From contig JANQNQ010000011.1 in the NCBI GenBank assembly GCA_028279515.1, positions 62,001-126,000 on the forward strand: a DNA stretch of 64,000 nucleotides, given 5' to 3'. Source of the DNA: Flavobacteriaceae bacterium (GTDB lineage: Bacteria; Bacteroidota; Bacteroidia; Flavobacteriales; Flavobacteriaceae). Every line of letters starts with the position of its first letter. Within the stretch, counting starts at the first letter, position 1. The notes beneath the pieces are model-generated. The model did not search any database. It saw only the letters and a list, made by a program, of their open reading frames with translations, and was not told the DNA's origin. Of this stretch, positions 47,695 through 57,584 are shown in pieces. A program made the translations under genes and the position numbers.

Positions 47695-48243
47695 TCATTT
47701 CCCAACTTGTTTACGAACCCATGTAAGTATAACACTTGCTCCTACAGCCATGAATACTACAAGGCCATTAAATATGATATCATGCATGTCAAATATTCGA
47801 CTTGGTATTAGTATCTGAATACATTCATCTAAAACACCAATTGTAAAGGTTGTTATAAATGCGTACAAGGCAGGTTTGAGAGTCTGATTTTTCTGAGTTG
47901 TCCGTTCAACTAGTGCTTTGTGAATAAAAATTGCCAGCACACTATATTCAATCAGGTGACTACGCTCGGGAAGTCCCAATCTAAGAAAAAAGACGAGGTA
48001 GACAGCCATGAGTCCTAACCAAATTGTAAGCTCGGTCTTGCTCGGTTGGATTTTTAATCCATGTGAAAAAATAGTGACTCCGACAAGGGACATACCAATT
48101 AGAAAAATAAAAGCCTGAATATTTTGATTAGCAAGGATCTTCTGAAGCGGACGTCCCATGACAAGCGTAGAAAAGATTGTGACTAAAACAATTAAGGCAT
48201 ATATCCAAAGTCGCTTTTCTCGAGGTGATTTGAATAGAGCCAT
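47695..48243 (-). CDS. VanZ family protein
   Basis: 182 residues with five to six predicted membrane helices. The VanZ-like pattern is present: RSHLIEYSVLAIFIHKAL, then GVLDECIQILIPSRIFDMHDIIFNGLVVFMAVGAS. The conserved Glu (LIEYS) and the E-x-x-Q-x-x-x-P-x-R-x-x-x-x-D-x-x-x-N signature of the VanZ fold are clear. Function in Bacteroidota is unknown; VanZ of enterococci gives slight teicoplanin resistance. The 229-base gap downstream (47467-47694) shows no gene and no clear terminator. Confidence 0.82.
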   Translation of the reverse strand: MALFKSPREKRLWIYALIVLVTIFSTLVMGRPLQKILANQNIQAFIFLIGMSLVGVTIFSHGLKIQPSKTELTIWLGLMAVYLVFFLRLGLPERSHLIEYSVLAIFIHKALVERTTQKNQTLKPALYAFITTFTIGVLDECIQILIPSRIFDMHDIIFNGLVVFMAVGASVILTWVRKQVGK

Positions 48244-48362: not shown

Positions 48363-51300
48363 CTAATTCTTTTCAATAATAAGTGCTGGGATATTTAATG
48401 ATTTGTACAGGTTGTTATAGGCATTCATCTCAGTATTTATAATCGCATCTCTCTCATCTTTATATACTTTCCAATCATTCATAAGGTCACGAAAGCGTTC
48501 TTTGGCACCTGAAGTCACTTTTGGATCGGCCTGGTCTATATAGTGTAAGAGTTGTATGAGCTGTGAATTGAGTTTGTTGTTAAAATTGATCACATCCTGA
48601 AATGTTTTCTGCTTCTCTTGTATTAGGTTCTCTTCCCAACTATTGATACGCTCTTGTAGTTCTTCTCCTTTTTCAATCAGTGCCTCTGCCTTGTCATTTC
48701 CCTTTAAAAGTTTGGCATAACGGGTCAGTTGTGTTTTCGCAGAGCGCATTTGGTTGACAGATTCATGCATGTCTTTTAAGGTGTTTTCTATGCGGACCAG
48801 CATGTCTTGCTGTTCTGCAAAATCTTCTTGAGTGGATTGAATTGCTGGATTTGGAAGAATGACTGCAGTAGTTTCTACGGTTTCTCCTTCTAGCGATAAG
48901 CGCAATGTATACTTTCCTGGCGCAACGCTAGACCCAGAATGCCCTCCAAAGACAAAAACCTTATCAATGGCAGGAATGGCTTCCCGATCAAAATTCCAAG
49001 TAAACCTATGGTATCCTCTTTTTGAAGGTAAAACCTCAGGTTTGGATGGTCCGCCTGGCCACGATTTAAAGTCTTTTGGTTTTTTATTGGTATATGATCT
49101 GATGACTTTTGCTCCTTGTAAAATATCTAATTTCAGATCCAAGGTATCCGCATCTTTGTCCAAATAATAATCGAAGGTGACGCCGCTTTTAGGATTAAGG
49201 CCTTGACCAACCGCTTTGGAAGTTCCCCCAAAAATGCGATAACTCGCTTTTGGCTCAAAGAGTTGAACCGCTTTGTTCTCTGTGGTCATATTTTGAAGAA
49301 CGCCTAAATCGTCCAGTATCCAGAATCCACGCCCCGAAGTGGCTGCGACCAGATCATTGTCTTGTATGGTCAGATCATTGATGGCAACGACTGGTAAATT
49401 GAGGTCGAGACGTTGCCAGAAAGTACCATCATCATTAGAAACATATAATCCTGTTTCGGTTCCTGCATAAAGCAAACCCTTTCTTTTTTTATCAGCACGC
49501 ACCACGCGAACGAATCCATTGGGGTCATCTAAGCCGTTGACAATTTTAGTCCACGTTTTTCCGTAGTTATTCGTTTTAAACACGTACGAATTGAGGTCCA
49601 GCGATTTGTATCGCATTACCACCACATAAGCCACTGCCGGGTCGTGTTCAGAGATATCAATGCTGTTGATAATTCCATCCGAAATACCTTTTGGAGTAAT
49701 GTTGTCCCAATTTGAGCCTCCATTTCTAGTAATATGCAACAAGCCATCATCTGTACCTACATAGAGCACACCTTCTTCGTGCTGAGATTCTACTAAAGCA
49801 GTAATCGTATTGTAGTTTTCTCCACCGGCAGCTTCGTTGGTATACGGACCTCCACCAGGACCATGTTTGTCTTTTTCGTTTTTGGTCAAATCAGGACTAA
49901 CTGTGGTCCAACTCGTTCCTCCATCTGTTGTTTTAAACACTACATTTCCAGCGTGATAAATGGTATTTCTATCGTGGGGAGATGAAATGATAGGAGCATT
50001 CCAATTGTAGCGATATTTTGAATCTTTTGGTGCTATACTCAATCCCAGCTCAGGGTATTCTTTGATGGATTTCTGCTCTCTAGACGACTTTGTCCACTTG
50101 CTGATATTTCCTTGATAGGTTCCTCCGTACACTGTTTCAGGATTGTCTGGGTCAAAGGCGATAAAAGCACTTTCTCCACCAGCCACAGAATACCAATCCT
50201 TCCAATCGATTCCTCCATCATTGGTGCGACTTGCAATTGCAATGGCCGAATTGTCTTGTTGTCCGCCATACACATTATAGGGAACCAAGTTGTCGGTGAT
50301 CACACGATAAAATTGAGCAGTAGCCTGATTCTGTTGCGTGCTCCAACTTTTTCCACCGTTAAAAGAAATATTGGCGCCACCGTCATTCGAGTTGATGAGG
50401 TTTTTGTTGTCATATGGATTGATCCATAGATGGTGATTGTCCCCATGCGGGACAGGAATATTGGTAAAACTTTTTCCGCCATCAATAGATTTCATCACGG
50501 GTGCATTTAAAACATACACTATGTTCTCATTTTGTGGATCCGCAAAGATTTCCATATAATACCAAGAGCGAGCTATATTTACGCGGTTACTGTTTACTTG
50601 CTTCCACTTTTTTCCTGCGTCATCAGAACGATACACACCGCCTTTTTTACCTTCTGCTTCAATGACCGCAAAAACCCGTTCTGGATTTGCTCTTGAGACT
50701 GAAACCCCAGATTTACCAAAGTCTTTTGGCAAGCCTTCTTTCATTTTAGTCCAAGTATCACCACCATTTGTAGATTTGTATAATCCTGAATGTTCTCCAC
50801 CAGATTCAATGATCCATGGATAACGACGATGTTGCCACATAGCAGCGTACAAAATTCGCGGATTTGTCATGTCCATCGACAAGGAAGAAGCGCCTGTGGT
50901 TGAGTTGATAAACAGCACTCGCTCCCAAGTTTTACCTCCGTCAACGCTTCGGTAAATTCCTCGTTCATTGGTGGGCGCATATTGCGCCCCTTGCGCGGCT
51001 ACATACATAATATCTGGGTTTGAAGGGTGAATGATCACATCTGAAATATGACGTGCTCTTTCCAATCCTAAGTGTACCCATGTCTTTCCGGCGTCCGTAG
51101 ATTTATATACACCATCACCCATGGATGTCATTACACCACGAGCGGCATGTTCTCCCATACCTACAACCACTACATTGGGATCACTTTCAGACACGGCAAT
51201 AGCACCAACAGATCCTGTTTTAAAGAATTTATCTGAAATGTTTTTCCAAGTAATGCCATCGTCGGTAGTTTTATAAACACCGCCACCTGTAGAACCCATA

Positions 51301-51506
51301 TAATAGGTGTGAGGCTGCCCAATGACTCCAGTAGAAGCCACACTTCTACCACCTCTATACGGACCAATATTTCGCCATTTTAAACCATGAAACAACGAAT
51401 CGGTTAGTTTTAAAACGGGCTCTTTGGTTTTCTTTTTTCTTTTTTGTGCATGATTGGTCAAAGGGAGGAAAAACAGGCAAATAAGGAGTAGTTGTAGTGT
51501 TTTCAT
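48363..51506 (-). CDS. Large secreted BNR/VPS10-type beta-propeller protein
   Basis: 1047 residues with a signal peptide (residues about 1-20). Over ten BNR-type repeats with the Ser-x-Asp-x-Gly-x-x-Trp pattern ([61 protein letters not shown]) form one or two ten-bladed propellers, as in sortilin/VPS10-like and sialidase-like proteins. A beta-sandwich and a coiled-coil helical tail (residues about 905-1030) follow. The family in Flavobacteriia is widespread and probably acts in surface or periplasmic binding; a glycosidase activity is not shown. No C-terminal sorting signal was found. Confidence 0.85.
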
Positions 51507-51582
51507 GTAGTTGTTTTAATGCATGATTATAATGAAGTACAACGATATGTATTTGGTTTGTTGCGTTTGCACTAAGGTAGCA

Positions 51583-51637
51583 AATCTGCAATGAATTCCG
51601 ATTAGGAATTCAGCCGCAATGAACTATAGACGTTGTT
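51583..51637. repeat. Cassette-type spacer, copy D (inverted repeat)
   Basis: Lies 3' of the S41 gene at 51646. Contains a perfect TGAATTCC / GGAATTCA stem (51592-51599 with 51605-51612) followed by GCCGCAATGAACTATAG and CGTTGTTG, a tail shared with the spacers at 54278 and 54924. Confidence 0.6.
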
Positions 51638-51645
51638 GTAAGTAG

Positions 51646-52647
51646 TTATTCATTCAACCATTCTTTAGCTCTGTTAATTTGGTTGTCGTTTTCAAAACTT
51701 ACATTATGCTGAAGTTCAATTTTTTCGTCTACACCAACTTTACCATCATACTTGTTTTTGTTTCTATCAATAAAAACATCTTGAGAGATAATTAAAACCA
51801 AATCATCATTGATTTTGTCATAACCATTTCCAGTAGTGTATCCTGCTGTTGCTTCTCCGATAAAAACTGTATTTTCTCTACCCTTAAAAGCAACAGCAAC
51901 TAATTCCCCTGAACTTATGGTATATCTACTTAATAAAACTGCTATTTTTTCACTTGATTTTACTTTAGGTAGATTGTCCATTTGGCAAACTAATCTTCCG
52001 TAATTAGAAAATTGTCCATTTTCAATGGTATATTTCCTTATTTCATTGTCTTTGTTTATCGAACCTGCAATAAAACCTTCTCCAATTAATGGGGCTAACC
52101 CTGAAATCATAGGTTCCATATTTCCGCCACCGTTGAATCTTAAATCCACAATCCATTTATCTACTCCTTTTGATTTTAAGTCAATAAGTCCTTGACGAAT
52201 AAAATCGGATTGCTCTTTGACGTCTCCTGGACCAATTCCAACAATTCTTAAATAACCAATTCCATCATTCAAAAGTTTATAAGAGAATTTTGCAGAAATG
52301 TCATTTATCACAGTATTTATGAATTCCGAATCTCTATTGTCTGTTCCTTCAATTTTGCCGTTGTAACTAACAATGAGTGAATTATCCTTTGCAGAGCGAA
52401 ATTGTCCGTGTTTGTCACCTAAACTATTTATTAAGTACTGTAATCCTTTTTTAAAACCTTCGGCATTTTCCTCTTCTTTTATTAATTCGATAAATTTAGC
52501 ATTAACTTTTTTCCAATTAACTTGGTCAGAATAAAGAGAGGTTTCTTTTGCTTTTAAGACTATTGGATGGTAAGTGATTTCTTTTTTTTGCCCTTTACAT
52601 GAACTTATCAAAAGTGAAATCATTAAAATTGGTAAGACATTTCTCAT
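51646..52647 (-). CDS. S41-family peptidase (lipoprotein)
   Basis: 333 residues from the ATG at 52647, which puts the lipobox SLLISSC next to the start; a longer frame from 52713 would read through the upstream spacer and is not credible. Motifs of C-terminal processing (S41) peptidases are present: GIGYLRIVGIGPGDVKEQ, WIVDLRFNGGGNMEPM and TISSGELVAVAFKGRENTVFIGEATAGYTTGN with the catalytic Ser. The coding region is clearly more AT-rich than the neighbours. It is one of four single genes in the array and resembles the gene at 52810 only in plan. Confidence 0.82.
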   Translation of the reverse strand: MRNVLPILMISLLISSCKGQKKEITYHPIVLKAKETSLYSDQVNWKKVNAKFIELIKEEENAEGFKKGLQYLINSLGDKHGQFRSAKDNSLIVSYNGKIEGTDNRDSEFINTVINDISAKFSYKLLNDGIGYLRIVGIGPGDVKEQSDFIRQGLIDLKSKGVDKWIVDLRFNGGGNMEPMISGLAPLIGEGFIAGSINKDNEIRKYTIENGQFSNYGRLVCQMDNLPKVKSSEKIAVLLSRYTISSGELVAVAFKGRENTVFIGEATAGYTTGNGYDKINDDLVLIISQDVFIDRNKNKYDGKVGVDEKIELQHNVSFENDNQINRAKEWLNE

Positions 52648-52667
52648 TTGTTTTCGTTTGCTATAAT

Positions 52668-52810
52668 TGCCTACAGCGGTCTCGTGTATGAGTAGTAGCG
52701 GATTTCTACTCACAAGCCTTTCGGTTTTGCACTGACCTTTGTTTTATGTTTATACTTTCGTTTTATCACTTAAACCGCTATTAATTATACACTTTGTTAC
52801 CTACAGGCAT
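52668..52810. repeat. Cassette-type spacer, copy B (inverted repeat)
   Basis: Fills the gap between the two S41 genes, 3' of the one at 52810. A TGAGTAG / CTACTCA stem (52689-52695 with 52706-52712) is flanked by GCCTACAGCGG on one side and GTTACCTACAGGC at 52797-52809 on the other. The outer ends share the CCTACAG word. It is longer than the other spacers and may be a composite of two. Confidence 0.5.
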
Positions 52811-54216
52811 TAGTTCAATTTATCGATTACAAAGTCAATCCATTTATATTTAGGAACTTCATTGTAAATAAAATAATCTGGATGAATTCCTTTATTGTCT
52901 ATCGTCATCTCTGGGATTCTCAGACTTTTTGATAAGCAATATATTAATTCAAAATCACCACAAGGTGATTTGGCAGGATATGTATAAGAAATATCTAATG
53001 CTCCAAAAGTAGTTTGTCCAAATAACTTTACTTTCTTACTCTGTTTAGCAGCTAACAAAAATTGTTCGGTTGTACTTGCATTTTGCCCATTTATGATAAT
53101 TCCAATATTTTTGGGATAAGGATAAATGGTATCAAATTTTGTAATGGTTACTTTTGAATCTTCCAAGTTTACATATTTCCCTTCATTTTTAGCTAATTTG
53201 TCATATGCTTTTCTTGCCCATTCCTTTCCTTCTTCTGACCAATTGGGATTTGTAATAAAATCTTTAACACGCTGATTATTTCTTGGTGTTGATAATAATT
53301 CTACTCCTACAGTTTCTATTGGGTTTGTATATAAAAGGGGTAAAAGCACTTTGAAATTATTATCACTTCCACCACCATTATCTCTTAAATCTATTATTAA
53401 ATTTTTTGTCTTTAATATTTCTTCTTTATTATCATTGATTAGATTGTTTGTAATTGTTCTTAAATTACTCGAAAAAGAAGGAATTCTTAATAATAGAGTA
53501 TTTTGATTAAGTCTTTCTATATATGGTTTTTCCGCTGAAATGGCTTTGTAGTACCTTTCAATTTTAGGATCACTTTCAGATTTCGGAAAAACTCTTTCTA
53601 AAGTTACAAATCCTAATTGTAAATATTTGTCTCCTAAAAGCTCTGCGGCATTAAAATTTTTAGGTGAATAATCTCCCATATAATAAATACAAGAGTTATC
53701 TGGCTTTATAACAAACTTAACTTCTCCTTTTTTCCATTGACTATCTGTTACCTCAATTACAAATCCTATATACTCATTTTCAACTTTTTTAACACCAATT
53801 ATATAAGGTTCAGATTTCCATATTCCTTCATAATCATTGTTTTCCTTATTTTGAATATAGTTTTTAAAATCCCTTTTATCAATATTTAAGGTTTCCCATT
53901 GTTTACTTTCAGTAATTTTGTTGGTTTCTTGATTTAGTGGACGAATTCCAAAATGTCCTTTTCTGAAAAATTTCATCCACTCTCGCATCAATTCAAAACA
54001 TTCCGTTTTGTTTGTGACTTTTTTTACTTTAGATAAAAAGGTTTTATTATGTTGTTTATACAGGTCATTCCCTTTTTGCTTTATTGTGTACTCAAAACCT
54101 GCATCATTCTTTTCAAATGTTGTTTTCATCCATTTAAAGTTTAATTCACAATCACAATTTTGAGAGAATGAGAGTAGAGGAATAAATAAGAATAATATTA
54201 ATGTTGATATCTTCAT
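52810..54216 (-). CDS. Secreted S41-family peptidase
   Basis: 468 residues. Signal peptide about 1-18 (LLSFSQ). After an N-terminal domain with many Lys and Asn, the S41 catalytic part has NLIIDLRDNGGGSDNNFKVLLPLL and NGQNASTTEQFLLAAKQSKKVKLFGQTTFG (catalytic Ser in the AS-T-T-E pattern), then YTYPAKSPCGDFELIYCLSKSL. It probably cleaves peptides in the periplasm or outside. AT-rich like its neighbours in the array. The substrate is unknown. Confidence 0.82.
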   Translation of the reverse strand: MKISTLILFLFIPLLSFSQNCDCELNFKWMKTTFEKNDAGFEYTIKQKGNDLYKQHNKTFLSKVKKVTNKTECFELMREWMKFFRKGHFGIRPLNQETNKITESKQWETLNIDKRDFKNYIQNKENNDYEGIWKSEPYIIGVKKVENEYIGFVIEVTDSQWKKGEVKFVIKPDNSCIYYMGDYSPKNFNAAELLGDKYLQLGFVTLERVFPKSESDPKIERYYKAISAEKPYIERLNQNTLLLRIPSFSSNLRTITNNLINDNKEEILKTKNLIIDLRDNGGGSDNNFKVLLPLLYTNPIETVGVELLSTPRNNQRVKDFITNPNWSEEGKEWARKAYDKLAKNEGKYVNLEDSKVTITKFDTIYPYPKNIGIIINGQNASTTEQFLLAAKQSKKVKLFGQTTFGALDISYTYPAKSPCGDFELIYCLSKSLRIPEMTIDNKGIHPDYFIYNEVPKYKWIDFVIDKLN

Positions 54217-54277
54217 TTTGAATTATGATTTTCTTTATAAACCTGAAATTTTCAATTTAGTTACAATTTTTTGTTCT

Positions 54278-54337
54278 GCTTATAGGTAACGGTCTCGGCT
54301 ATGATTTCGCTTAGAAATCAGCCGCAATTGCGGTTAT
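54278..54337. repeat. Cassette-type spacer, copy A (inverted repeat)
   Basis: 3' of the gene at 54358. The stem CGGC, two unpaired bases, TGATTTC / GAAATCA, GCCG (54296-54324, 5-base loop) is the clearest of the four, flanked by GGTAACGGTCT on one side and GCAATTGCGGTTAT on the other. Compared with copy C, the words GTTA(C/G), TATGATTTCG and GCCGCAAT are shared. Confidence 0.65.
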
Positions 54338-54357
54338 AAATAATTAGCAACTAGTAT

Positions 54358-54900
54358 TTATTCATTCAGTATTTTTTGAATGTAGTTTTGTATTCCTATT
54401 TCTGTTCTAATTAATTCTTCTGTCATTAGTTTTAATGACATTTTCTCTTTTTTACCGGTTTCAGTCAAATTAGAATAGATGAAATCCAAAAGTTTATTCT
54501 GTTTGTACTTTAAGAGTTCTTTTCCTTCCTCTATGTCGGCCAACATGGACAATTTTTCGTAATCTAACAATTCTATTTTGGAGTTTGACAGCGCATTCCA
54601 GTAATTGAGTCTAATGGTTGGGCCATTAACGCCCCCGCCTTTTATAAGTACTTCCATCAGCGACAAAGTTTCATTATCTATGTAAACGTTAAGAGTGTCT
54701 ACTAATGCTTTTTGCTGAGGTGTTTTCTCGGTTATTTCTTTATCAGTATCGGTTAGCTCTTTTTTTAAAGAGGTGTAGAAATTGTTGATATATTCTCTGT
54801 CTTTTCTTTCTTGGTTCCAATTGTCTATCCATAATGCTATTAACACGCCCAATAAAACGGGGATAATATCTTTGATAAAGCCTTTAAAATTGTTTTTCAT
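54358..54900 (-). CDS. Membrane-anchored protein, DUF6090-like
   Basis: 180 residues. One N-terminal membrane helix IIPVLLGVLIALWIDNWNQERKDREYINNFY carries the G-V-L-I-A-L-W-I-D-N-W-N pattern of the same family as the gene at 6473 (G-I-N-L-A-I-W-F-N-N-W-N). The soluble part is helical with coiled-coil character (SLKKELTDTDKEITEKTPQQKAL). Function unknown. It is a single gene between spacers A and C and is AT-rich. Confidence 0.76.
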   Translation of the reverse strand: MKNNFKGFIKDIIPVLLGVLIALWIDNWNQERKDREYINNFYTSLKKELTDTDKEITEKTPQQKALVDTLNVYIDNETLSLMEVLIKGGGVNGPTIRLNYWNALSNSKIELLDYEKLSMLADIEEGKELLKYKQNKLLDFIYSNLTETGKKEKMSLKLMTEELIRTEIGIQNYIQKILNE

Positions 54901-54923
54901 TTCTGGGTATTGTGTTCTTATTC

Positions 54924-55006
54924 TGTCTAATGGTATTGGTTATGATTTCGTTGTTATACGGGTAAGTGAACCGCCGCAATGAATTATAGCCATTGTTACA
55001 GGCTGG
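54924..55006. repeat. Cassette-type spacer, copy C (inverted repeat)
   Basis: 3' of the DinB gene at 55010. On the minus strand the words GCCTGTAACAATGG, GGCTATAATTCATTGCGG and CGAAATCATAACC pair imperfectly (GGCTATAATT with AAATCATAACC; TGTAACAATGG with ACCATTAGACA), giving a long imperfect hairpin. This is the longest attC-like structure of the array. Confidence 0.6.
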
Positions 55007-55009
55007 CTT

Positions 55010-55516
55010 TTATTCCAATTGATACTTTTCTAGGATTATATTTATATGGTGTTTTTCGTGCCCAATAATTGACCTAAGAAATTCTTCAAGTGTAATTTCA
55101 TATTGTCTAGCCTTACCTTTTATATCTAATTGATGCTGGGATAAAGTTTCGATAAAACTAATAGATGCTTTTCTTACATTTAAAAAGTCAGTCAACAAAG
55201 ATTGTAGGCTCAGTTCCTCAAACCGACTATTTTCTACCAATGATTCTTGGTCATACCCCCAAAGCTCTACGCTTTCATTTCTGCTTAATTGAAAAGCCCT
55301 AAACATTTTAACCCTCTCATGGTCTGCAATATGCCCGACTATTTGTTTGATACTCCATTTATTAGGTTCATATCGAAAAGTAGCTTTTTCCTCACTTATG
55401 TTTTTTAGAATTTCTATAGTAGGGATTTCTTCAAATATTGACTGCAATGAATTGCTTTTAGCCAATTCAAAATAGTAAGGGAATCCATCTTTAGGTTGAT
55501 AGTTCATCGTTGGCAC
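55010..55516 (-). CDS. DinB family protein (paralogue of 4186)
   Basis: 168 residues. DinB bundle with the metal-binding histidines in IKQIVGHIADHERVKMFRAFQ and SIIGHEKHHINIILEKYQ. NKWSIKQIVGHIADHERVKMFRAFQLSRNESVELWGYDQESL aligns well with KWTIKEILVHLIDDERIFAYRALRYARNDDTPLHGFEQDD of the 4186 protein, so the two are paralogues. The product is cytoplasmic; a thiol S-transferase role is a family inference. It is the array gene closest to uvrB and its upstream region carries the AATG-phased repeat. Confidence 0.85.
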   Translation of the reverse strand: MPTMNYQPKDGFPYYFELAKSNSLQSIFEEIPTIEILKNISEEKATFRYEPNKWSIKQIVGHIADHERVKMFRAFQLSRNESVELWGYDQESLVENSRFEELSLQSLLTDFLNVRKASISFIETLSQHQLDIKGKARQYEITLEEFLRSIIGHEKHHINIILEKYQLE

Positions 55517-55538
55517 TTCATTTATGAGAGTTAACGTT

Positions 55539-55593
55539 TATAAACATAGCCAATTTCAATGAATTAATGAGAGAATGAGTTAATGAATTAATG
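55539..55593. repeat. 18-bp repeat (right copy) and AATG words in 8-bp phase
   Basis: TATAAACATAGCCAATTT (55539-55556) is followed by AATG at 55558, 55566, 55574, 55582 and 55590, exactly 8 bases apart. AATTTCAATGAATTAATGA (55552-55570) is identical to 23030-23048. It lies between the DinB start and the uvrB stop. Confidence 0.72.
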
Positions 55594-55595
55594 CT

Positions 55596-57584
55596 TTACA
55601 AATGCCCCTGCAACACCTTGATCTCATCCCTCAATTTCGCAGCTTGCATAAAGTCCAAGTCCTTGGCCGCCTTTTCCATTTCCTTTCGCTTTTCGCGGAT
55701 CTTCTTTTCGATCTGTGGTTTGGTCAAGTATTCCAAATCCGGTTCAGCGGCCATGTGTGAAGCCGGGTCGTATTCAAAGTTGGTGATCGTATTGCCAGTA
55801 AGCGCATTGTCCAACGATTTGTTCAAGGCTGTCGGAGTCACATTGTTGGTTGTATTGTAAGCCGTTTGCTTTTCACGTCGGTAGTTCGTTTCGTCAATCG
55901 TCTTTTGCATGCTATTCGTGATCTTGTCGGCATACATGATTGCCTTGCCATTTAGGTTACGAGCCGCGCGACCCACGGTCTGGGTGAGCGAGCGAGCACT
56001 ACGTAAGAATCCTTCTTTATCCGCATCCAAGATCGCTACCAAAGACACCTCAGGCAAGTCCAATCCTTCACGAAGCAGGTTCACACCTACGAGTACATCG
56101 AACAAACCTTTACGCAAATCCTGCATGATTTCCACACGTTCAAGAGTGTCCACATCACTGTGAATATAACGACAACGCACTTGAATACGGGTGAGGTATT
56201 TGGTCAATTCCTCGGCCATACGTTTGGTCAGTGTGGTGACCAAGGTACGTTCGTCCTTCTCAACGCGAATTTGGATTTCCTCGATCAGATCATCGATCTG
56301 ATTTAAACTCGGACGCACTTCGATCTCAGGATCTAACAATCCGGTCGGACGAATTACTTGCTCTACGTAAACCCCGTCGGTCTTTTGAAGTTCATAATCA
56401 GCCGGCGTCGCGCTTACATAAATCACCTGATTTTGTAGCGCTTCAAATTCTTCGAATTTGAGTGGACGGTTGTCCATCGCCGCCGGCAATCGAAATCCGT
56501 ACTCCACCAGATTCTCTTTACGGCTTCGGTCGCCACCATACATGGCGTGTACCTGCGAGATGGTTACGTGACTCTCATCGACCACCATCAAATAATCATC
56601 CGGGAAATAGTCTAACAAGCAGAACGGACGCGTACCGGGATCCCTTCCGTCCAAATAGCGCGAATAGTTCTCAATGCCCGAACAGTACCCCAATTCTTTG
56701 ATCATTTCCAGATCAAAGTTGGTACGCTCTTCCAGACGTTTTGCTTCTAGATGTTTTCCGATTTCTTTAAAATATTCGACCTGCTTTCCAAGATCCAGCG
56801 CGATCTGGTCGATAGCACCGTTCAGTACCTCGGGCGAGGTCACGAACATATTCGCGGGATAGATATTCAGTTTCGGATATTTTTCAAGCACTTGGTTGGT
56901 AGCAGGGTCAAACGCTTCGATCTCTTCGATCTCATCACCGAAAAAGTGAATACGAAACGCTTCGTCAGCATAACTCGGAAACACATCCACCACATCGCCT
57001 TTCACTCGAAAGTTTCCGTGAAGAAATTCTACTGAAGTACGCGAGTAGAGACTCTGCACAAGCATGTGTAGAAACTTGGTGCGCGAGATAACTTGGTCAC
57101 GTTCGATTGAGATAACGCTTTTTTGAAATTCCACTGGATTTCCGATACCATACAGACAAGAAACCGATGCGACTACTAGCACATCTCTTCTTCCAGAAAG
57201 TAGGGAAGAGGTAGCACTGAGACGTAGCTTTTCGATCTCTTCGTTGATCGAAAGATCCTTTTCAATATAGGTACCTGTAACAGGGATATATGCTTCCGGT
57301 TGGTAGTAGTCATAGTACGAAACAAAATATTCTACCGCATTGTTCGGAAAGAATTGCTTGAACTCCGAATACAACTGAGCGGCTAGGGTCTTATTGTGCG
57401 CAAGCACAAGGGTAGGGCGCTGTACCGTTTCAACCACATTGGCGACGGTAAAGGTTTTTCCGGATCCCGTGACCCCCAAAAGTGTTTGATAGCGTTCGCC
57501 GTCCTCAATACTGCTCGAAAGCTGTTGGATTGCTTCTGGTTGGTCACCCGTTGGAGCAAATTCTGATTCTATTTTGAATTTCAT
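55596..57584 (-). CDS. uvrB: Excinuclease ABC subunit B
   Basis: 662 residues, full length. Nucleotide-excision repair helicase: Walker A GVTGSGKTFT (37-46), the beta-hairpin that opens DNA (YYDYYQPEAYIPVTGTYIEKD, about 90-110), DESH box (MVVDESHVT, near 334), helicase motifs V and VI (LREGLDLPEVSLVAILDADKEGF and QTVGRAARN) and the C-terminal UVR domain binding UvrA/UvrC (EKKIREKRKEMEKAAKDLDFMQAAKLRDEI). It works with UvrA and UvrC, not in this window. It is GC-richer than the array next to it. Confidence 0.97.
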   Translation of the reverse strand: MKFKIESEFAPTGDQPEAIQQLSSSIEDGERYQTLLGVTGSGKTFTVANVVETVQRPTLVLAHNKTLAAQLYSEFKQFFPNNAVEYFVSYYDYYQPEAYIPVTGTYIEKDLSINEEIEKLRLSATSSLLSGRRDVLVVASVSCLYGIGNPVEFQKSVISIERDQVISRTKFLHMLVQSLYSRTSVEFLHGNFRVKGDVVDVFPSYADEAFRIHFFGDEIEEIEAFDPATNQVLEKYPKLNIYPANMFVTSPEVLNGAIDQIALDLGKQVEYFKEIGKHLEAKRLEERTNFDLEMIKELGYCSGIENYSRYLDGRDPGTRPFCLLDYFPDDYLMVVDESHVTISQVHAMYGGDRSRKENLVEYGFRLPAAMDNRPLKFEEFEALQNQVIYVSATPADYELQKTDGVYVEQVIRPTGLLDPEIEVRPSLNQIDDLIEEIQIRVEKDERTLVTTLTKRMAEELTKYLTRIQVRCRYIHSDVDTLERVEIMQDLRKGLFDVLVGVNLLREGLDLPEVSLVAILDADKEGFLRSARSLTQTVGRAARNLNGKAIMYADKITNSMQKTIDETNYRREKQTAYNTTNNVTPTALNKSLDNALTGNTITNFEYDPASHMAAEPDLEYLTKPQIEKKIREKRKEMEKAAKDLDFMQAAKLRDEIKVLQGHL

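Follow-up and report, generated by a model that had tools for sequence, protein, structure and literature searches.

The window analysed here is a stretch of 64,000 nucleotides from a Flavobacteriaceae bacterium (GenBank assembly GCA_028279515.1, contig JANQNQ010000011.1, positions 62,001 to 126,000 of the forward strand). Within it, four minus-strand genes (two of the peptidase S41 family, one DUF6090-like and one DinB) each carry an imperfect palindrome on their 3' side, as described in a first-pass annotation made from the sequence alone. That annotation had proposed an array of gene cassettes without an integrase, acquired by a mechanism related to integrons. We conclude that the four genes are foreign, namely leftover cassettes from a widespread Bacteroidota integron-like gene-capture system, which relies on an integrase of its own kind in place of the classical one. 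The features of the locus are given below in window coordinates. R'' and R' are the paired boxes of a site, a key is the short sequence shared by the two ends of one cassette, and R1 is a covariance model trained on 32 sites from other genomes and on none from the window.

55596-57584, minus strand: uvrB, the flank of the cluster on the DinB side
55524-55535, minus strand: presumed left end of the cluster, GTTAACTCTCAT, with a 4/10 match to the right-end key of the DinB cassette
55010-55516, minus strand: cassette 1, DinB_2 family protein gene (PF12867, E 2.5e-16)
54929-54997, minus strand: attC-like site 1, after DinB (R1 43.9 bits, E 4.1e-7; R'' CCTGTAAC, R' eroded to ATTAGACAG)
54358-54900, minus strand: cassette 2, DUF6090-like membrane protein gene (PF19578, E 0.00096, under the curated cut-off)
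54288-54345, minus strand: attC-like site 2, after the DUF6090 gene, diverged (R'' eroded to TTGCTAAT, R' GTTACCTATA; missed by R1)
52810-54216, minus strand: cassette 3, peptidase S41 family gene (PF03572, E 7.3e-17)
52675-52798, minus strand: attC-like site 3, after S41 (R1 82.9 bits, E 2.5e-15; R'' TGTAGGTAAC, R' eroded to GCTGTAGGCA)
51646-52647, minus strand: cassette 4, peptidase S41 family lipoprotein gene (PF03572, E 2.9e-23)
51541-51637, minus strand: attC-like site 4, after S41 (R1 60.5 bits, E 1.3e-10; R'' CTTACAAC, R' GTTGTACTTCAT)
48363-51506, minus strand: VPS10/sortilin-like gene of 1047 aa, the other flank (named from its repeats, not from a family search)

The GC content is 0.28-0.32 at 52-55 kb and 0.45-0.47 in uvrB, in agreement with the AT richness remarked on at first reading, and the words then said to be shared among the four spacers are real (e.g. 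the D1 family, GCCGCAATGAACTATAG). Run over the 64-kb window, R1 matched three of the four sites and nothing else below an E-value of 0.2, which places the palindromes well outside chance expectation. Site 2 was missed because it is too diverged, and was assigned by eye from its likeness to relatives with TATAACCGCAATTACGGCGG and from a 9/10 key match to the next cassette. An Rfam scan returned no family match.

A search of 60 related genomes with the whole segment gave matches in 34, mostly to the spacers and not to the genes. Site 3 has a copy with 93% identity over 126 nt in genome G014, and the spacer behind the other S41 gene (site 4) has many copies among these relatives. Regions fetched from the relatives contain rows of sites with different genes between them, one orientation per row. 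At E ≤ 0.01, R1 matched 41 of the 60 genomes, with up to 58 matches per genome, and 30 background loci (60 kb) scanned with the same model gave no match at E ≤ 1. A pattern scan of GTDB genomes for the left arm of the site detected at least 118 stretches, mostly in named marine Flavobacteriaceae (Winogradskyella, Bizionia, Lacinutrix, Tenacibaculum, Maribacter, Polaribacter) and in some other Bacteroidota; 47 of these loci yielded 175 model matches. One site searched as DNA in plasmid and phage collections found no match. Spacers of this type occur beside unrelated genes in many flavobacterial genomes, the outcome of a check that the first-pass annotation had itself asked for. Synteny of all four window genes was found in none of the relatives: homologues occur singly in G026 and G033, and no sites were present beside them at the loci checked. 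Two of the gene families in the cluster are also cassette cargo elsewhere (S41 in locus L217, DUF6090-like in L031).

Compensatory changes were present at 10 of 16 stem pairs in the 32-site set and at 13 of 16 in a 150-site set, and stem covariation was 0.443 compared with 0.096 in shuffles, a signal that was destroyed when the partner was slid by one base. Two A.C non-pairs of the top strand are nearly fixed (unpaired in 139/145 and 144/145 sequences) and correspond to G.T on the bottom strand. With DNA parameters, the bottom strand was the more stable predicted fold in 62 of 66 sites (p = 1.3e-10).

Cassette ends follow a pairing rule. Sites begin with ...NNNNNNNAAC and mostly end in CCGTT or CACGTT. 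The 7 nt after GTT vary by cassette (88 different keys among 140 sites), and each key matches, once reverse-complemented, the 7 nt that precede AAC in the next site, i.e. the other end of the same cassette. Among 71 adjacent pairs, 43 matched at 7/7 and 23 at 6/7, compared with 0.8% and 2.6% of random pairs. Full key matches are always exactly 10 nt long with GTT counted, and in a second set of eight named genomes all 57 keys matched at 8/10 or better. The key has the form GTTRN5M over 10 nt, of which GTTR fits the integron consensus GTTRRRY and RRRY does not; the poor fit of the spacers to this consensus, already suspected for the window, extends to the wider family, in which 18 of 140 sites conform. 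In the array of G014, a single 557-bp cassette is present in four copies, each flanked by other neighbours, and the identity between the copies runs precisely from GTT to GTT. The longest open reading frame (ORF) is codirectional with the site in 66 of 69 cassettes and fills a median of 92% of the space, a typical cassette having its ATG ~28 nt after GTT and its stop codon ~12 nt before AAC. These patterns indicate that a gene and its 3' palindromic site are one cassette, a discrete mobile unit starting and ending inside GTT. Each cassette has a private 10-nt inverted repeat at its ends, and a circular form would join the two ends, completing the site (R''...R'), as the circular form of integron cassettes does.

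The same ends bear on an alternative explanation, according to which the spacers are dispersed palindromic repeats behind immobile genes, comparable to repetitive extragenic palindromes, miniature inverted-repeat transposable elements or terminators. Short palindromes are common at the ends of genes, and copies of the sites recur both within and between genomes. However, the keys belong to the gene and not to the repeat, as the R' of one site matches the R'' of the next. Whole cassettes are duplicated with exact ends, each array keeps one orientation with a recombinase and an attI-like point at its head, and a solitary cassette elsewhere in the window's genome has matching ends as well. We consider it extremely unlikely that the spacers are such repeats.

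The reading of the spacers as cassette sites is extended by the enzyme at the head of the arrays. When array-bearing genomes were scanned with PF00589, most proved to have a tyrosine recombinase next to the array. Its usual form has 370-402 aa, and the catalytic residues R235, K260, H324, R327, H350 and Y359 are invariant in 18 enzymes. Counting genomes with at least four sites as array-bearing, 34 of 60 genomes contained both array and integrase and 22 had neither, 2 (the window's own genome and G019) had sites only, and 2 had the enzyme but few sites or none (p = 4.8e-12). In six genomes checked, the first site follows the integrase gene at a distance of 0.7-2 kb and in the same direction. 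Of 295 genomes of the class Bacteroidia, 145 were positive with a profile of the array integrase. Two Chryseobacterium plasmids carry the integrase, one of them together with sites, and viral contigs encode relatives of the catalytic core.

If the enzyme inserts cassettes beside its own gene, the insertion point should carry the left key that opens the first cassette. This 7-nt key was recovered intact in 9 of 13 loci, at one GTT that lies 37-139 nt from that edge of the integrase gene which faces the array, and two named Winogradskyella genomes show the same arrangement of this attI-like key. An inverted repeat ends 4-6 nt before the attI GTT in 6 of 11 loci, beyond shuffled expectation (three with 0/200, three with 5/200). 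The integrase gene is mostly codirectional with attI behind its stop codon and less often divergent. The divergent layout, in which the integrase points away from the array as it does in classical integrons, was observed in L191, L121, L109 and L117. Three of these four enzymes are short (277-285 aa) and the fourth has 376 aa; the attI key is intact at two of the loci.

The usual form of the integrase has an extra N-terminal domain of ~75 residues with the order beta-beta-alpha-beta-beta-alpha, modelled at good confidence (predicted local distance difference test, pLDDT, 86). It received no Pfam name, and its top Foldseek matches, including XPB damage-recognition and SMARCAL1 HARP domains, were not significant (E 0.2-0.4). 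Nearly all matches among the viral relatives begin only after this domain. Short integrases of 277-280 aa without it are divergent from the array, with the attI key 106-138 nt from the edge (G029, L121). The idea that the domain is the general key to hairpin recognition is weakened by these short forms, which also adjoin attI and arrays. In the longer forms the domain is a candidate for folded-site recognition, as a lead at most.

Since the array integrase is Xer-like and the host has both XerC and XerD, other Xer-based module systems have to be weighed, for example genes flanked by dif-like sites and moved by host XerCD. The sites, however, are 120-nt foldable elements with covariation and not 28-bp dif sites, and the cassette ends vary from cassette to cassette. 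A dedicated recombinase tracks the arrays, whereas XerC/D-like enzymes occur in nearly all genomes. We give next to no credence to movement of the window genes by such a system. XerA acts on dif-like double-strand sites and is not known to move cassettes. The core of the array integrase is related to XerA and IntI (closest solved relatives PDB 5hxy, 4a8e and the IntI structure 2a3v), and two of four array integrases passed the cut-off of NF040815 (XerA-type). XerA-type chains align only to the core and not to the N-terminal extension.

Another alternative is that the window cluster is a cluster of attC sites lacking integron-integrases (CALIN) in the strict sense, i.e. a set of attC sites left behind by an ordinary integron of the IntI type after loss of its integrase. 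The layout common to the arrays is that of integrons, with genes that stand singly and in one direction, a palindromic site on the 3' side, ends paired in GTT, a bottom-strand bias and an attI-like point; in addition, canonical IntI exists elsewhere in the phylum. Against this, none of 249 genomes of the family Flavobacteriaceae had an IntI above the cut-off, whereas the same model matched 84 of 296 genomes of the phylum as a positive control. The array integrase scored ~200 bits against the IntI model (cut-off 265), aligned in two stretches and lacks the ~40-residue insert (I2) present in all IntI compared. Trees place the array enzymes in a lineage separate from IntI (support 100/99-100 for IntI and 88/82 to 93/97 for the array type), values that do not decide on strict monophyly. 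The R boxes, 10 nt of the form GTTRN5M, differ from GTTRRRY in most sites, and no IntI was found beside arrays, which refutes a strict CALIN as far as tested. We judge this alternative very unlikely. The suggestion in the first-pass annotation that a recombinase other than IntI might be responsible has proved apt for the intact arrays. Judged from sequence, the system works like an integron and is not of the IntI class by the features tested. It shares with integrons an integrase, attI, one-gene cassettes, a foldable 3' site with paired R boxes, a bottom-strand bias and crossover at GTT, and departs from them in the missing IntI insert, the usually present N-terminal domain, the separate lineage, the 10-nt keys and the mostly codirectional integrase.

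The window's own genome does not encode such an enzyme. A profile search detected no array-type integrase in it, and an IntI search returned only XerC, XerD and an Arm-DNA-bind_5 enzyme, none of the array type. Using tblastn, we found no credible integrase remnants in the window, in a second cassette locus on contig C14, at a locus on C10 or at the contig ends; array fragments were found neither around the loci nor at contig ends, and no attI was found in this genome. The second locus holds six sites at C14:48833-53231 and is partly decayed, with one cassette key at 10/10. The solitary cassette at C10:424782 (L205 5783-6793) has two ORFs and ends that match at 10/10, lies outside any array, and looks as if it had been inserted at a secondary genomic site. 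Its intact ends suggest that an enzyme acted more recently, either in trans or before it was lost.

The keys of the window cassettes are eroded to different degrees: 9/10 for the S41 cassette at 52.8-54.2 kb, 7/10 for the S41 cassette at 51.6 kb, 6/10 for DUF6090 and 4/10 for DinB, compared with 9-10/10 in live arrays. R'' TGTAGGTAAC of site 3 matches the R' of site 2 at 9/10, and R'' CTTACAAC of site 4 matches the R' of site 3 at 7/10 with three transitions, while R' GTTGTACTTCAT of site 4 opens onto the next chromosomal gene. As GTTAACTCTCAT agrees with the right-end key of DinB at only 4/10, the left boundary of the cluster is lost or foreign. We call the cluster a remnant because no dedicated integrase is present in the window, the genome or the contig ends. 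An integrase-less cassette array formed by an integron-related mechanism, as first proposed, is supported by spacers that recur beside unrelated genes, by the lack of synteny and by the absence of both array integrase and IntI from the genome. The label CALIN does not apply in its strict sense, since the term presupposes IntI-type attC sites; the cluster is, moreover, decayed.

Several observations weigh against this interpretation. Only one window cassette has kept a near-perfect end key, one site escapes R1 and the left end of DinB is unmatched, so that DinB and DUF6090 are less secure as members of the cluster than the two S41 genes. G019, the other genome with sites only, has 36 sites and also lacks an integrase. 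The E-values of R1 are rough owing to a short calibration, folding of the bottom strand is a prediction and not an observation, and the link between integrase and sites consists of co-occurrence, adjacency and attI, from which we infer recombination. Even so, the window cluster is very likely a decayed, integrase-less remnant of a Bacteroidia integron-like cassette array: an old cassette cluster without its own enzyme, and a modest example of the system.

A mechanism can be outlined from these features. The recombinase would cut at the GTT of attI and of the site, with the folded bottom strand of the site as the most likely substrate. In integrons, one strand exchange followed by replication inserts the circular cassette (PMC8946536). 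The same steps would insert cassettes here, both at attI and at older cassettes. The cassettes of the window would have been captured by the integrase, which was then lost or acted in trans, and their ends would have decayed since. Loss of the enzyme may be visible elsewhere: in G021 (C1:1921381-1959380) a second array ends by a broken tyrosine recombinase fragment, a 73-aa frame with stops, which suggests integrase loss in progress.

Among the nearest known relatives of the system are the recombinase-associated acquired interbacterial defence (rAID-1) clusters of gut Bacteroidales, reportedly described by Ross and colleagues in Nature in 2019. A plasmid of Parabacteroides distasonis (L318) carries what we take to be such a cluster, given its appearance. 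Its integrase has 51% identity to that of G009 over 286 aa and matches the array-integrase profile in one stretch; behind it, immunity genes of the Tdi1 and SMI1/KNR4 kinds follow in a row that keeps a single direction (L318 5764-12852). The intergenic repeats GGTAACAAAGCG...CGCTTAACCATTACC obey the end-key rule at 6-7/7 in 6 of 7 cassettes, so that matched cassette ends are common to this rAID-1-like row and the flavobacterial arrays. The row has sites of ~45 nt, a left core ATT, a right core AAC and mostly immunity-type cargo, whereas in the flavobacterial arrays the sites measure 120 nt and the keys 10 nt, the cargo is general, and a genome can hold up to ~60 sites. As to rAID-1 features in the window itself, a homologous recombinase, present in the arrays of relatives, is absent from its genome, and the window contains no type VI secretion system immunity cargo, its cassettes holding S41, S41, DUF6090-like and DinB genes. 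The flavobacterial system is probably the same as rAID-1, with general cargo.

No account of the flavobacterial arrays turned up in our literature search, which did not extend to preprints or to most papers under subscription. Integrons are considered nearly absent from Bacteroidetes; in Bacteroidetes proper, IntegronFinder 2.0 reported only In0 elements and one complete integron, in Salinibacter (PMC9024848). Yet most of the flavobacterial genomes checked here have an integron-like system, and about half of the 295 genomes of the class encode its integrase. Many AT-rich singleton genes would thereby become recognizable as a mobile pool, large, swappable and so far mostly unrecognized. In Riemerella anatipestifer, aph(3')-IVb enters the chromosome independently of homology with a fixed 27-bp 5' segment and a 140-bp 3' segment that folds like attC, and the authors (2026) regard the mechanism as not yet fully elucidated (PMC13148043). 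This species belongs to the same order, Flavobacteriales, and no recombinase or array was identified in that work; the array integrase would offer a candidate recombinase for this uptake. The system also bears on the view that IntI alone has I2 and carries out single-strand recombination, a view whose authors add that direct proof of causality is missing (eLife 2020, PMC7790495). We put forward, tentatively and as rather less likely than not, that Bacteroidia possess their own integron class, in which single-strand recombination of cassettes would be catalysed by an integrase without the I2 helix that is regarded as indispensable for it, the N-terminal domain may aid recognition of the folded site in the longer forms, and rAID-1, the flavobacterial arrays and the Riemerella cassettes would form one system.

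Further observations concern the surroundings of these elements. On plasmid pHH1107 (L202 6010-8240), the TnpF/XerD gene upstream of tet(X3) encodes an N-terminally truncated member of the array-integrase lineage with 59% identity to that of L177. The stretch that separates the two genes holds an attI-like inverted repeat, TATACGCCATTTGGCGTATA plus GTTATGTGCCAT. No site was found after tet(X3) on this plasmid; tet(X) may perhaps be a former cassette. Several perfect short tandem repeats (e.g. AACCAAG, GTTTGGT and GCTGGAT) are present at contig ends of the window's genome, G000 (L321, L326, L328, L334, L335, L205) and probably broke the assembly. Between uvrB and DinB, at 55554-55598 of the window, lies an AT-rich 40-bp element, AATGAATTAATGAGAGAATGAGTTAATGAATTAATG, with at least four further copies in the same genome (three on C5, one on C12); it does not belong to the cassette system. 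A VanZ-like gene near the window cluster (47695-48243) has a paralogue within the C14 cassette cluster of the same genome (L204 4996-5559).

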